From NCBI RefSeq assembly GCF_900291975.1, contig NZ_OMPN01000001.1, positions 62,001-126,000 of the forward strand: 64,000 bases of DNA. The letters are read 5' to 3'. The stretch's first letter is position 1, and the number at the start of each line of letters is the position of its first letter. Of the stretch, positions 6,176 to 41,830 are shown in pieces. The position numbers and the translations under genes were made by a program. This DNA comes from Agathobaculum massiliense. GTDB taxonomy: Bacteria > Bacillota > Clostridia > Oscillospirales > Butyricicoccaceae. The notes under the pieces were generated by a model. That model was given only the letters and a program-made list of their open reading frames with translations. It did no database searches and was not told the origin of the DNA.

Positions 6176-6350
6176 AGAATAGCAAGTCAAGCGCCAGAAC
6201 TGCGATGCAGCCGGTATCGCAGTTGACGAGGGAAGGGTTAATCGAAGTTTTCGGCGGATGCCCTTCGGCCATGAGTGGGTTGGTCGTGAGCAGACTGTTA
6301 AATCGCGCGGGCGACTGCGCGGACAGAGCAGATTCTGCGTAACGCACTAT
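6176..6350 (+). ncRNA. glmS ribozyme-riboswitch
   Basis: The 5' leader of glmS matches the glmS catalytic RNA. AGCGCCAGAACTG holds the cleavage site, predicted between A6190 and G6191. The P2 arm is GCGATGCAGCCGGTATCGC. Then come GACGAGG, TTAATCGAAG and TTCGGCGGATGCC of the double pseudoknot core, and later P3/P4 stems near 6280-6350. In known members glucosamine-6-phosphate is the cofactor for self-cleavage, and the cleaved mRNA is degraded, giving feedback control of amino-sugar synthesis. Exact 3' end of the fold is approximate. Confidence 0.95.
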
Positions 6351-20790: not shown

Positions 20791-20978
20791 GATAGAAAAT
20801 GGCAATACTAGCTTGCTGGGTTTCCTTTGGAATTACCTATTAATTAGCTGTCCGTTCATCCTGCGGGGGTATCAACCTTTCGGCTGGATGGGTGCGGCCC
20901 TGCCGCCTACCCGTGTTTCACACGCGCCTGTTGGCTCTCGCAAATCAGATGAAAAGTCCCGCGAAGGAGGAGTCAGTT
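20791..20978 (+). ncRNA. Candidate IS110 left-end/bridge RNA region
   Basis: About 190 bases of structured non-coding DNA precede the IS110 transposase, including GGGTGCGGC/GCCGCCTACCC (about 20889-20913). Group-IS110 elements are known to express a bridge RNA from their 5' non-coding end that pairs with donor and target DNA. Position and length fit; I could not assign guide loops. Confidence 0.4.
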
Positions 20979-22250
20979 ATGAAACAGACGGTTCCGGTAG
21001 TTGGAGTGGATGTGAGCAAGCGGATTAGCGATATGTGCGTTCTCGCTCCCAACAATGAAATCATGGCTCGACTAAAGATATACCACGACTTAACCAGCAT
21101 GGAGCGCTCTGTGGCAGAGCTGCGTCGGGTCGAGAACGAGTGTGGTGTGGCCCCAGTCATTGTTATGGAGTCTACCTCTCACTACCATCTCATCCTATTC
21201 CAGTTTTTCTGCGAGGCCGGGTATGAGGTGATTGTAGTCAATCCCATTCAAAGCGGTGCGTTGAAAAACATCAATGTCCGAAAAGTAAAAAATGATAAGG
21301 TGGATGCCTACAAGATTGCAATGCTTTATCGGCTCAAGGTCTTGCGAAAATCCCAAGTTCCCGTAGACAGTTTGCGAGGGCTACGGCTGCTCTGCCGCCA
21401 GCGTGCGGAACTTATGAACGACGTAACAAGCTACAAAAACCGACTAGCTGCATACTTGGATCAAATTTTCCCTAGCTACGATAAAGTATTTTCGGATGTA
21501 GGTGGCGCTGCCTCAAGAGCTGTTTTGCGGGAATGTCCTACTCCACAGATCTTGCTGTTAAAAAGCGAGAACGAACTGCTCCGTATAATTTGTATTGCCG
21601 GATATAAAGGCCACACTTTTGGAGTGAAAAAGGTGGAAAAACTTCGCCATGTTGCCGAGGACGCCCTGCGGCTTGGCCTTTACGCACCAGGAAATGCGGC
21701 TGTGGTTATATCCGCCGTTGCTATGCTGGACGCTTTGTTGAACGGTATATGGGAAATCGAACAGGCTATCAAAGCATTGATCATTCAGGAACTGTTTATC
21801 CAAAAGAATATTGCACTTTTACAGACCATCCCTGGGATTGGCCCCCACAGTTCCATTGCGCTCCTTGCTGAAATCGGAGATTTTACCCTGTTTCAAAAGC
21901 CCAAGCAACTTGTGGCATATTTCGGCCTTGATCCATCCCAGCGGCAATCCGGTATGTTTACAGACTCCAAAATGAAACTATCTAAACGTGGTTCTTCCTA
22001 TGTCCGAGCCTTGCTTCATTTGGCTGCCGTTTCCTCTGTTGCGCCACACCAAAATCAATCCCCCGCTAATCCAGTGCTCTTTGCCTACTACCAAGAAAAA
22101 TGCAAGACAAAACCACCTCGAATTGTTATGTGTGCTCTCATGCACAAGCTCTGTAATATTATCTTTGCCGTTCTCCGCGACCAGAAACCGTTTGAGTGGC
22201 GTCAACCGGAGCAACACGCTACTCGGCTGGGGCTGGTTTCTGTCGCATAA
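20979..22250 (+). mobile_element. IS110-family transposase, intact
   Basis: The 423-residue recombinase starts at ATG 20979 behind GGAGGAG. The RuvC-like DEDD domain is visible: D11 in VVGVDVSK, E in VIVMESTSHYH, D residues in VKNDKVDAYKIA. The C-terminal Transposase_20 domain carries LQTIPGIGPHSSIALLAEIG, AYFGLDPSQRQSG (holding the catalytic-serine region) and LSKRGSSYVRALLHLA. The frame is complete, so this copy may be active. It inserted into the decayed element, or just to its right. Confidence 0.93.
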
Positions 22251-22478: not shown

Positions 22479-23324
22479 ATGGAAGATTTCAAATTGACGG
22501 CGGAGCGGATCGCGGCCTATGGCCACTATTTGAAGCAGGAGGAACGGGCCCCAGCCACGCTGGAAAAGTATCTGCGGGATGTGCGGGCTTTTGCCCTCTG
22601 GCTGGATGGGGAGGCCGTTACCAAGGAGGCCGTGACCGGCTGGAAAGAACGACTGCTGGCAGAGCGCCGCGCTCCCTCCACGGTGAACACGGCTCTTTCC
22701 GCCCTCAACGGCCTGTTCCGTTTTCTCGGCTGGGAGGGATGCAGGGCGAGGTTCGTCAAGGTACAGCGGCGGCTGTTCAGGGACCCAGCCCGCGAACTCA
22801 ACCGCCCGGACTATGACCGGCTGATTGCCACGGCGCGGGAGCTGGGCCAGGAACGGCTGGCGCTGGTGATGGAAACCATCTGCGCTACCGGCGTCCGGGT
22901 GAGCGAACTCCGCTATCTCACCGTGGAGGCAGTTCAGCGGGGGCGGGCGGAGATCTCTTTGAAAGGGAAAGTCAGGGTGATCCTCATTCCCACCAAGCTG
23001 GCACGGAAGCTCTTGAAATACGCCAAGAAAAACAAAACCGCTTCCGGCGAGATTTTTCTCACGGGAAACGGCAAAAGTCTTTCAAGGCGGCAGATATGGG
23101 CGGAAATGAAACGGCTGTGCGTCAGGGCGGGGGTGGAGCCGTCCAGGGTGTTCCCCCATAATCTCCGGCACCTGTTCGCCACGGCCTACTACCGGGCCTA
23201 CCGGGATATTGCAAAGCTGGCGGACGTGCTGGGGCACAGCTCCATTGAAACGACCCGTATCTATCTCCTGACCTCCGGCGAGGAGCACCAGCGCCAGCTT
23301 GACCGCTTGGGGCTGGTATCATAG
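22479..23324 (+). CDS. Tyrosine recombinase, XerC/D-like
   Basis: The 281-residue enzyme starts at ATG 22479 with CAGGAGG upstream. It has an N-terminal SAM-like DNA-binding domain (APATLEKYLRDVRAFALWL) and a full catalytic set: Arg in CATGVRVSEL, Lys in SLKGKVRVI, HxxR in FPHNLRHLFATAYY, His in VLGHSSIETT and Tyr in TRIYLLTS. It probably works on nearby inverted repeats or as the integrase of a small element. It is paired with a second, degenerate recombinase across an unusual 290-base gap. Confidence 0.92.
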   Translation: MEDFKLTAERIAAYGHYLKQEERAPATLEKYLRDVRAFALWLDGEAVTKEAVTGWKERLLAERRAPSTVNTALSALNGLFRFLGWEGCRARFVKVQRRLFRDPARELNRPDYDRLIATARELGQERLALVMETICATGVRVSELRYLTVEAVQRGRAEISLKGKVRVILIPTKLARKLLKYAKKNKTASGEIFLTGNGKSLSRRQIWAEMKRLCVRAGVEPSRVFPHNLRHLFATAYYRAYRDIAKLADVLGHSSIETTRIYLLTSGEEHQRQLDRLGLVS

Positions 23325-23389
23325 GCAGAGTTAACATTCCGCCCCAAACAAAACGGTTTTTCTACCTGCGGGACTACATATACAAAGTA

Positions 23390-23418
23390 ATTATATCATT
23401 CCTGTCCTTGAAAAGCAA
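23390..23418 (-). promoter_or_regulatory. Leftward promoter inside the inverted repeats
   Basis: Read on the minus strand, TTGCTT (23418-23413) and TATAAT (23395-23390) are 17 bases apart. It points into the 3' end of the first recombinase gene as drawn, but would drive the second gene if the segment flipped. Confidence 0.65.
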
Positions 23419-23451
23419 GGAAGTTCCTAACTTTTGGGCGTGAAAAAGCCA

Positions 23452-23534
23452 GCCGCAAAAAGAAGATTTTTTTGCGGCCTGGTTTCGTGCGTCCCCTGCT
23501 CTCCTTTCACGGGAGCAGGGGACGCTTATTTTTT
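23452..23534 (+). terminator. Two hairpins, the second a strong terminator
   Basis: GCCGCAAA and TTTGCGGC form the first stem (23452-23478). GCGTCCCCTGCTC (23489-23501) and GAGCAGGGGACGC (23513-23525) form a perfect 13-bp stem followed by TTATTTTTT. It should stop plus-strand transcription arriving from the first recombinase. Confidence 0.85.
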
Positions 23535-23614
23535 GCGTTTGGCCTTTCCAATGGACACATGAGCACTAAAGCTGTGTGCGGAATGTTAATTCTGACTGCT
23601 GAGAGGTAATGGGT

Positions 23615-24475
23615 ATGCCAGAGGAAAAGATACAGGGAAGGTCCGGTTTCCCTGAGAATACAGAACGCTCCCACAGGCTCGGCCTGTGCCTGACAGACGA
23701 GCTGGAGCTGCGGTTCCTGGAAAACCTGCGGGAGCATGGACGGACAAAAGATACCATCAGCGTCTACCGCCGCAACCTCTCCAGGCTGCGGAAAAGTCTG
23801 CCGGAGGACAGCAAACTGGATCCCGCATTTCTTTCTAACTGGCAGTCCGAGTTATTGGAGCAGGGCTATTCCCCGGGCACCGTCAATAGCTGCACCGCCA
23901 CCGTCAACAGCCTTTTGGAGTTCGCAGGACGGCAAGACCTCCGGGTAGAACAGGTTTCTCCAGACGAGAATATACCTTTGCCGGAACTGACCAGAAATGA
24001 ATATCTTCGGCTGCTCCAGACGGCAAAGCTGCTGGGCAAACGCCAGACCTATCTGCTGGTGCTGATGTTCGGCACGATGGACCTGCCGCTTCATGCCCTG
24101 GCGCGTGTGACCGTGGAAGCCGTGCGGGAGGGCTGGGTACTTGTTCCGAGCAGGCTGCGCGTCCCGCCCTGTCTGCGGGCGGAGCTGCTGGCCTATGCCG
24201 GGGAGCAGGGGATCGGGAGCGGCCCTATATTCTGCACTCGGTATGGTAGGCCAATGGACCGGGGGAATATCAATGTCCGTCTCCAGTCCTTGTCCCGTGA
24301 CGCGCGGGTATCGCCGGAAAAATGCAATCCCCGGTGCCTGCGGAAACTGTGCGTTGCCACGCAGGCGGGCATCCGATCCAGTTTGGAACTTCTGATTGAG
24401 CAAGCCTATGACCGGCTACTGGAAACGGAGGCTTTGACTGTGGGATGGAACGAAAGCGAGGTGATGGAACGATGA
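23615..24475 (+). CDS. Degenerate tyrosine-recombinase-like protein
   Basis: The 286-residue product starts at ATG 23615, eight bases after AGAGG; ATG 23609 is possible but too close. The core-binding domain (KDTISVYRRNLSRLRKSL) and catalytic fold (LTRNEYLRLLQTAKLLGKRQ) are recognisable. The expected first arginine is replaced in FGTMDLPLHALARVTVE, the HxxR box reads NPRCLRKLC, and no catalytic tyrosine is apparent near the end (EQAYDRLLETE). It is probably a non-catalytic partner or architectural subunit of the upstream recombinase. The frame itself is open. Confidence 0.75.
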   Translation: MPEEKIQGRSGFPENTERSHRLGLCLTDELELRFLENLREHGRTKDTISVYRRNLSRLRKSLPEDSKLDPAFLSNWQSELLEQGYSPGTVNSCTATVNSLLEFAGRQDLRVEQVSPDENIPLPELTRNEYLRLLQTAKLLGKRQTYLLVLMFGTMDLPLHALARVTVEAVREGWVLVPSRLRVPPCLRAELLAYAGEQGIGSGPIFCTRYGRPMDRGNINVRLQSLSRDARVSPEKCNPRCLRKLCVATQAGIRSSLELLIEQAYDRLLETEALTVGWNESEVMER

Positions 24476-24727
24476 CCTTTGAAATACCGCTTGTGGACGC
24501 GCTTTCTATTCAAGCGGACTGCATGTATTTATCTGATCTGCGCTATCTGGACAAATGGCAGCGGGTGCGGCTGGCCCGAATATTGGAGCAGTTGCCAGCC
24601 GATCCCGCTTCTCTGGAAGAATGAAATGGTGCGCTGCAATATCTGGCACAGCAGTCACCGGAAGAAACGGCAGAGGCCGCACGGGAGCGGCTGATCCAAT
24701 CATCATCCTCTCTTAATAGGGGAGGGA
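24472..24727 (+). pseudogene. Small conserved element protein interrupted by TGA
   Basis: The ATG overlaps the end of the recombinase-like gene (ATGA). The frame MTFEIPLVDALSIQADCMYL and DLRYLDKWQRVRLARILEQL runs 50 codons to TGA 24622. It then continues open as NGALQYLAQQSPEETAEAARE. A Trp codon at the TGA would restore one protein. I do not recognise a function. The end is approximate. Confidence 0.5.
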
Positions 24728-24730
24728 CGA

Positions 24731-24755
24731 GCTTGGGGACACTTTGTCCCCAAGC
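24731..24755. repeat. Perfect 11-bp inverted repeat
   Basis: GCTTGGGGACA and TGTCCCCAAGC surround a CTT loop. There is no T-run. The GGGACACTTTGTC part recurs in opposite orientation at about 25411-25423. Confidence 0.6.
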
Positions 24756-24998
24756 CATGACAAAAGAAAAACAGGAGGACTTCACTACACGAAAAAGCGA
24801 ATACTGTCATGCTTGCTGTGTGCAGTCATGGTTATTGGGATTTCTCAACGATTGCCTTGGCAGCCGGGCGCATGGTACTATCTGGTGGTACAGGAGGCTA
24901 CCAACAGCCATGATTTCAACCGCGAGGGAGATGTGCATGGGCATTGGACCAAGCTGACCGCTGACCCAGATTGGACGAAGTATCAAACTGACAGATAG
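24744..24998 (+). pseudogene. Possible fragment of a secreted protein
   Basis: This open stretch has a signal-peptide-like part (TKKRILSCLLCAVMVIGIS) joined to a short polar tail (GAWYYLVVQEATNSHDFN, then HGHWTKLTADPDW). It looks like the two ends of a larger exported protein after an internal deletion. No family is recognised. Confidence 0.3.
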
Positions 24999-25548
24999 GA
25001 CGGGAGACAAGGGTAAACCATACGAAGTTGGGGGGCTTCGGCCCCGGCTTCTCCGAGCCTTTCGCTTCGGCGGAGGGTTCGGAGAAGCTCATAAAAAGAG
25101 AAAAGGAGCTGTTGCTTATTCACTATGCGGCAGAAACTTAATTTCCACCATAAAATACCGGAACGAGGGATGCCTATGGCTATGGCCTTGGGTTAGTATC
25201 TGAAAACTGTATAGCTCCCACAAAAGAGCCCGCAAAGGCCGTTCAGGTCTTTGCGGGCTTTCGTTATGTCGGGTTATGGAAAAGTTTTTGGAATACCCCC
25301 GTATTTTGCTGGTTTCTCCCGCAGCCCATAGCATCCCCCGTTCCCGCTGTTCTTTCGGCCTGCATCCTCTTTTTCTCTGTCACCGTTCCGACAAGCTCCC
25401 CTGCTTTGAGACAAAGTGTCCCGAAGCCCGCTGCCGCTCACAGATAAATCGACTGTAGAAGTGAATGGCGTAGATAGAGGAAAGCCTTATCTGAAATCTT
25501 TGACTACATCATAAGATCATTTCAGATAAGACTTTTCCATTGTATATA
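24999..25548. other. Gene-free stretch with hairpins
   Basis: No gene is supported. Structures seen are CTTCTCCGA...TCGGAGAAG (about 25049-25089), AGCCCGCAAAG...CTTTGCGGGCT followed by TTCGTT (25226-25262), and a terminator next to the TetR gene. The low-information ends of mobile-element remnants are the likely explanation. Confidence 0.5.
25486..25536. terminator. Terminator of the TetR gene
   Basis: CTTATCTGAAAT (25486-25497) and ATTTCAGATAAG (25519-25530) form a perfect 12-bp stem just beyond the TetR stop, with T-rich flanks on both strands. Confidence 0.65.
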
Positions 25549-41667: not shown

Positions 41668-41696
41668 TTGACAAATAAAATGTGGAATGATACGAT
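41668..41696 (+). promoter_or_regulatory. Promoter of the thiamine operon
   Basis: TTGACA (41668-41673) and TACGAT (41691-41696) are 17 bases apart, directly before the riboswitch. Confidence 0.75.
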
Positions 41697-41700
41697 AGCA

Positions 41701-41785
41701 CTGCAAGGGAGCTTCCGTTGGAGGCTGAGAGGAGGGGGTCCCCCTCGACCTTACCTGATTTGGATAATGCCAACGTAGGGATGCA
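41701..41785 (+). promoter_or_regulatory. TPP (thi-box) riboswitch
   Basis: The core GGAGGCTGAGAGG is followed by CCTTACCTGATTTGGATAA and TGCCAACGTAGGGATG, which match the thiamine pyrophosphate aptamer with its pyrimidine-sensor CTGAGA loop and helix P4/P5. It precedes thiD by 110 bases. In the family, TPP binding reduces expression of thiamine synthesis and uptake genes. Confidence 0.95.
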
Positions 41786-41830
41786 GAGGAAAACGCCTGT
41801 TGTCACATGCTGTGAAACGTGTCGAATACA

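Follow-up and report, generated by a model that had tools for sequence, protein, structure and literature searches.

A spacer with an inverted repeat separates two recombinase-type genes

The window analysed here, a 64,000-nucleotide stretch of Agathobaculum massiliense DNA, carries two genes of the tyrosine-recombinase type in tandem on the plus strand, with a short spacer between them. The first gene, rec1 (22479-23324), encodes an active-type recombinase of 281 aa, the presumed invertase, with the Pfam domains Phage_integrase (2.9e-26) and Phage_int_SAM_1 (5.7e-11). Its catalytic residues R, K, H, R, H and Y are complete, as in all 83 Rec1 sequences that we collected, and the first-pass annotation had rightly called this recombinase complete. 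An IS110-family transposase gene (20892-22250) lies directly upstream of rec1. The second gene, rec2 (23615-24475), is the first behind the spacer and encodes a conserved relative of the tyrosine recombinases that appears catalytically dead; by Shine-Dalgarno spacing, a start at 23615 is more likely than one at 23609.

The spacer is bounded by a perfect 12-bp inverted repeat (23331-23342 and 23578-23589) with 235 nt between its arms. This repeat had been noticed at first pass, and we found that it extends to 20 nt with 18 of 20 positions matching (23323-23342 and 23578-23597). The local inverted-repeat score was 14, a value that none of 40 dinucleotide-shuffled versions of this stretch reached, and a 17-nt arm pattern searched through the whole 3.2-Mb genome with up to two mismatches matched at the two arms only. 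Each arm resembles a complete core site for a recombinase, in which the half-sites ACARAAT and ATTYYGT surround a 4-nt centre. The left core site, GCAGAGT-TAAC-ATTCCGC (23325-23342, plus strand), begins right after the Rec1 stop codon and agrees at 11 of 14 half-site positions; the right core site, TCAGAAT-TAAC-ATTCCGC (23578-23595, minus strand), lies inverted relative to the left one and agrees at 12 of 14. The centre TAAC is the same in both, and the two mismatches between the arms include at least one within a half-site. We delimit the putative invertible segment as 23325-23595. Its architecture is shared with two paralogs in the same genome (L006 and L007) and with relatives. Rfam at gathering thresholds gave no match within the spacer, and a tRNA scan of the window found none; elsewhere in the window, Rfam placed a glmS ribozyme at 6179-6347 and a TPP riboswitch at 41695-41799.

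Inside the segment, the minus strand carries the -35 and -10 pair with 17-base spacing that had been reported earlier, and the sequence bears it out: -35 TTGCTT (23418-23413), 17 nt, and -10 TATAAT (23395-23390). A TG precedes the TATAAT, which makes it an extended -10 (TGATATAAT). This promoter (23390-23418), read from sequence and predicted to be active, faces left into rec1, antisense to it. A generic promoter consensus scan left it unlisted, because its -35 shares only three of six positions with TTGACA. To its right, an intrinsic terminator on the plus strand (about 23489-23535) has a T-rich tail and faces rightward; its presence agrees with the first-pass annotation, whereas the stem, given there as 13 bp, comes to 15 pairs with the terminator tool. 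In the OFF state, it would keep transcription that reads through from Rec1 out of gene two. A further hairpin (23451-23479) scored as a leftward terminator on the minus strand in the terminator scan, and inversion would turn it to the right and place it in front of the promoter, where it may function as a terminator. As had been proposed, the promoter as drawn points back into gene one with the terminator guarding gene two, and in the flipped segment the promoter would point toward gene two. We refer to the orientation in the window as OFF.

Matched site pairs recur behind related recombinase genes

We assembled 83 loci, comprising the window, two paralogs from the same genome, and 80 relatives (the best 80 of 231 from titled genome records), whose hosts we take to be Clostridia-type. 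The two paralogs, L006 and L007, are intact Rec1 genes with 66% and 63% identity to that of the window; each has an inverted repeat of another sequence right behind its stop codon, and the spacers are alike. The same genome also contains broken pieces of a further Rec1 relative (L004, G000:C2:341220-341515). Rec1-type genes at E 1e-75 or better were found in 74 of 295 genomes and 56 of 148 genera of the order, a count of genes and not of switches. Among viral contigs there was one relative, and the contig that carries it stops at the gene.

Inverted repeats were counted at 71 loci, since 12 of the 83 had less than 330 nt behind Rec1 and were dropped. A score of at least 11 was reached in 59 of the 71 loci compared with 0.7% of 2840 dinucleotide shuffles, and a score of at least 13 in 51 compared with 0.07% of shuffles; in six loci the score was below 9. 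The two paralogs scored 17 (L007) and 10 (L006), the latter below the counting cut-off of 11, and an unrestricted search at L006 favours another pair. Across loci, the arms share the quasi-palindrome ACARAAT-N4-ATTYYGT. Divergence of the repeat copies in relatives had been named beforehand as grounds for abandoning the idea of a switch; the arms do vary among relatives, but both arms of one locus change together, which is the opposite pattern.

With the left and right zones searched separately, both sites were found in 69 of the 71 loci, the window included; the half-site threshold was lenient, with 39% of shuffled stretches passing, so that the weight lies on the matched centres. Imperfect half-sites are present in other loci as well as in the window. 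The 4-nt centre was identical within the locus in 64 of these 69 loci, compared with 141 of 4692 comparisons across loci, and 39 different centres occurred among the surveyed loci. Tyrosine recombinases require the overlap, which lies between the two points of cleavage, to be identical in both sites, but its sequence is not fixed. A centre that is matched within each locus is thus what a functional pair of sites would be expected to show. The three intact modules of this genome carry different centres (TAAC, CAAT and TCAT), and recombination between the modules should thereby be prevented.

We then examined the spacers of 59 loci for promoters. An extended -10 was found in 42 of them, compared with 6.9% of shuffled spacers, and was not found in the other 17. 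It pointed toward Rec1 in 33 loci and toward the downstream genes in nine, with none in both directions, and the nine right-facing elements sit at the mirror position. Forty of the 42 lie 29-61 nt from the arm that they face. At a fixed -35 distance upstream, the three letters of TTG were present in 37, 39 and 34 of the 42, although this TTG had played no part in the search. The terminator scan detected any terminator in 17 of the 42 spacers, compared with 2.6% of shuffles, and none in 25.

The spacer is reversed between related loci

We compared spacers with one another and found that the reverse complement matched better in 19 of the 70 best-scoring spacer pairs listed. The window spacer matches those of L048, L059 and L071 in the same orientation and that of L074 reversed. 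Nine locus pairs were hand-picked from this list for whole-locus alignment, and in six of them (L119/L124, L104/L124, L108/L119, L052/L055, L116/L122 and L092/L107) the spacer was reversed between same-strand flanks: Rec1 and the left arm aligned on the plus strand, the spacer aligned in reverse, and the downstream region aligned on the plus strand again. The reversed match covers part of the spacer in L104/L124 and L052/L055, and the downstream match of L092/L107 is in pieces only. The remaining three were L104/L121, with a partial reversed match of 162 nt; L090/L116, which gave no reversed match at the whole-locus word size, though the spacer-pair comparison had one; and the contrast pair L085/L107, which aligned in the same orientation. 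The pairs are not all independent, as one group comprises L104, L108, L119, L121 and L124, while both L052 and L055 come from one metagenome bin; the reversed pairs fall into four separate groups of loci. These results demonstrate that both orientations of the switch family exist in nature, between related loci.

A search of relatives for a flipped spacer had been suggested at first pass, with the idea to be given up if no relative was inverted. The inverted form is present, and the six reversed pairs, together with the right-facing promoters at the mirror position in nine of 59 loci, support the interpretation of this segment as a switch.

The contigs themselves showed two further features. 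Twelve of the 80 relatives' contigs stop within 300 nt behind Rec1, and these ends may reflect mixed orientations that upset assembly. Five of the 80 (L072, L086, L088, L090 and L096) start about 130-170 nt upstream of Rec1, a possible second break point.

Genes behind the switch

The first gene behind the switch was classified at 68 loci, 15 of the 83 having been dropped with less than 900 nt behind Rec1. The first recognised gene was rec2 in 23 loci, a DUF4379 treble-clef array in nine, an undescribed small protein in seven, an AP2-like protein in six and an HU protein in one; 22 of the 68 loci had none of these five families. The families in this slot were assigned from representatives (DUF4379 at 9e-106, HU at 2e-26, AP2 below the Pfam cut-off). 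The representatives of DUF4379 and of the AP2-like proteins are similar to families of phage endonucleases, yet they carry no Pfam nuclease domain. Behind the slot genes, or instead of them, many loci have genes for large proteins whose starts, judged by eye, resemble secretion signals. GLUG repeats, List-Bact repeats and a VWA domain were seen in single cases, and other loci carry ABC-2 exporter genes or, also by eye, glycosyltransferase-like genes. In many relatives, the output of the switch would thus consist of a small leader protein followed by large secreted or polysaccharide-export genes, and such cargo suggests a role in host contact or phage escape.

In the window, rec2 is followed by a small-protein gene (24472-24624, plus strand) that overlaps the Rec2 stop codon (ATGA) and is truncated by an in-frame stop. 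It is related to the small proteins behind switches L006 and L007, and tblastn with the L007 small protein gave 49% over 83 aa, with the match continuing beyond the stop. No large cargo directly follows. A possible remnant ORF with a hydrophobic N-terminal stretch (24744-24998, plus strand) gave no sequence match; many relatives have large secreted proteins at this place, and its position suggests a possible cargo remnant. The usual cargo looks eroded here, and with the small gene cut short and no large cargo following it, Rec2 is left as the main remaining output of the window switch.

Within this region, we also observed a palindromic 15-mer, GGGACACTTTGTCCC, and a one-base variant of it at 24735-24749 and 25407-25421, inverted and about 660 nt apart. 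Genome-wide, the pattern has these two exact matches only and one more at one mismatch, and the reversed control pattern has one match. The pair may be a second site pair or just hairpins.

Proposed mechanism

We are confident that the locus belongs to a self-contained kind of phase-variation switch that works by the following mechanism. Rec1, which is probably the enzyme that inverts the adjacent segment, would bind both inverted core sites flanking the 235-nt segment and exchange strands across their identical 4-nt centres, and the segment would be turned around. In the OFF state, which is that of the window, the promoter would fire left into the 3' end of rec1 and the rightward terminator would block read-through, so that gene two should be silent. 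In the ON state, transcription from the promoter would cross the right site and enter rec2 and then the genes beyond, and the other hairpin would stop read-through from rec1.

We consider it likely that the window copy itself still flips. The mismatches between its arms and the in-frame stop in the small gene indicate that it could be ageing, and a somewhat unlikely reading carries this further: the family flips, while the window copy is a fossil, locked OFF as its sites and cargo decay. The arms matching at 18 of 20 positions, the interrupted small gene with no large cargo behind it, the IS110-family gene just upstream and the long end branch of the window Rec2 (1.04) would all fit such decay. 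Rec1, however, is intact, with an end branch (0.12) that does not exceed the one of its sister L048 (0.17); the two 4-nt centres still agree, and imperfect half-sites are not peculiar to this locus.

Flipping of the segment by its adjacent Rec1 also has to be weighed against flipping in trans by another recombinase, either a Rec1 paralog (L006 or L007) or a Xer-like enzyme. The genome does hold two more intact Rec1 paralogs with similar half-sites, and invertases that serve several sites in trans are described for RecV and Mpi in the available text of one report (PMC5903667). We nevertheless regard this as quite improbable, since 69 of 71 loci have a site pair behind their own Rec1-type gene and the genome has no further copy of the window arm. 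It is hardly credible that the repeat was left behind by a transposon or arose by chance and that no inversion takes place: arms this short, with 235 nt between them, might belong to a miniature element, but the same arrangement with locus-specific arms recurs in most of the 71 loci, spacers are inverted between same-strand flanks, and a chance repeat is rejected by the shuffles and the relatives.

Rec2 is a conserved relative of the recombinase family that lacks catalytic residues

Gene two had been described at first pass as a degenerate recombinase, which is apt for catalysis, where residues are lost, but not for the gene as a whole, which belongs to a conserved family. In Pfam, Rec2 has a SAM_1 match just over the cut-off and no Phage_integrase match. 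Relatives were found in 23 of the 80 loci, and one solo copy lies elsewhere in this genome. All 25 Rec2 sequences lack the His of HxxR, the His/Trp and the aligned Tyr; the first Arg is retained in five of the 25 and the second in 18. Because the catalytic His, His/Trp and Tyr are missing, Rec2 should be unable to cut DNA.

In the phylogenetic tree, Rec2 forms one clade of 25 sequences with support 100/99, beside 19 Rec1 sequences, and five other recombinases of the genome fall outside Rec1 and Rec2; the branch of Rec1 has support 91/96, is not starred, and carries the tree program's warning of long branches meeting. Thirty-one columns are invariant among 24 Rec2 sequences. The dN/dS ratio was 0.19-0.58 in the 12 least diverged pairs and up to 0.82 in others, as obtained by a simple method at high dS with 25 of 229 usable pairs listed. 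The predicted structure is confident (mean pLDDT 89.8, pTM 0.69) and has a recombinase-like fold, with one long helix (241-278) at the place of the catalytic tail, as positioned from the alignment. Foldseek with this model returned 27 matches at E 0.001 or better, including XerA, XerD, lambda Int and Tn1549 Int, with modest TM scores (0.35-0.52 among the 50 matches listed), and a profile search matched the XerC-like 4a8e at 2e-14. Moreover, Rec2 and its Rec1 neighbour show correlated distances (0.71, n = 24, uncorrected for host descent), and none of 2000 permutations was as high.

A decaying duplicate without function would also show lost catalytic residues and a marginal Pfam match. We consider this very unlikely in view of the strongly supported single clade, the invariant columns, the dN/dS of the least diverged pairs and the confident recombinase-like model; a pseudogene was likewise judged unlikely. 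The conservation, the fold and the correlation with Rec1 instead argue that Rec2 is a dead enzyme that has been kept and that tends to accompany its switch.

We lean towards Rec2 being a regulator that binds DNA and acts either on the switch sites or on transcription. More tentatively, the slot may be dedicated to a handful of types of small protein, most of which would bind DNA and several of which look like mobile-element components that have been disarmed (counting the AP2-like proteins as resembling homing-endonuclease domains), and Rec2, from a sister lineage of the invertase, might bind the same or related core sites, setting how long the switch stays ON or controlling other switches. 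If true, this would be a phase-variable regulator of phase variation.

Rec2-like genes also occur in other settings. A lone Rec2-like dead recombinase (L009 2647-3450, G000:C2:2824646-2825449) lies behind genes that by eye are flgL-, fliW- and csrA-like, a setting that hints at a possible regulatory role near flagella for a Rec2-like protein. Arrays of Rec2-like genes were seen in genomes G066, G075 and G076, and a 733-aa ORF at L068 (4143-6344) holds more than one Rec2-like unit.

Comparison with known systems

The closest published system, as far as the available part of its report describes it, is inverton group 139 with invertase group 35 in gut Clostridia (PMC11892184). Group 139 comprises 33 invertons, 32 of them from Clostridia, nearly all near a tyrosine-type recombinase that is not itself driven by the flipping promoter, and it has the most significant link to a tyrosine-type recombinase group (PMC11892184). 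In the two examples cited there, the arms measure 14 and 26 nt and the inner segments 227 and 205 nt; reads showed orientation shifts in Intestinimonas butyriciproducens and Clostridium sp. D5, one of them dependent on growth on mucin carriers (PMC11892184). On this description, group 139 and the Rec1 family have in common the adjacent tyrosine-type recombinase, the Clostridia-type hosts and similar arm and inner lengths, and the sites of the Rec1 family may be identical with those of group 139. The Rec1 family differs in having a dead recombinase and a leader slot, neither of which is named in the available description of group 139 (PMC11892184). Our results connect an observation made from reads of gut Clostridia with a defined gene family. 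They also provide a testable model for locus-private phase variation, in which enzymes and half-sites are similar and the 4-nt centre matches within, but not between, loci.

In Bacteroides capsule operons, the flipping promoter is followed by UpxY and then by the capsule genes. The order resembles that of the Rec1-type loci, with a flipping promoter, then a regulatory protein, the antiterminator UpxY (noted in the accessible portion of PMC11892184), then surface-structure genes. The Bacteroides promoters differ in that a serine invertase, Mpi, acts on many sites, according to the available part of PMC5903667, and in that the leader protein is unrelated. The RecV switches of Clostridioides difficile (flagellar and cwpV) are alike in having a tyrosine recombinase, short inverted repeats, surface functions and a host among the Clostridia, as described in the same source (PMC5903667). 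There, one enzyme serves several sites (PMC5903667), whereas the Rec1 switches each seem to have their own adjacent recombinase and centre.

For Rec2, no paper joining a dead recombinase to a flipping promoter was among the open-licence literature matches listed. A parallel is offered by MrpR (YopR) of prophage SPbeta, which in the available text of its report has a tyrosine-recombinase fold, has lost recombinase function and works as a DNA-binding repressor (PMC10516654); its structure (8A0A) was absent from the nine profile matches of Rec2 and from the 50 Foldseek matches listed. MrpR keeps its Lys and Tyr and controls a prophage (PMC10516654), whereas Rec2 lacks the aligned Tyr and stands first behind a flipping promoter. 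A conserved dead recombinase as the product of a switch is an easily tested candidate for a feedback regulator.
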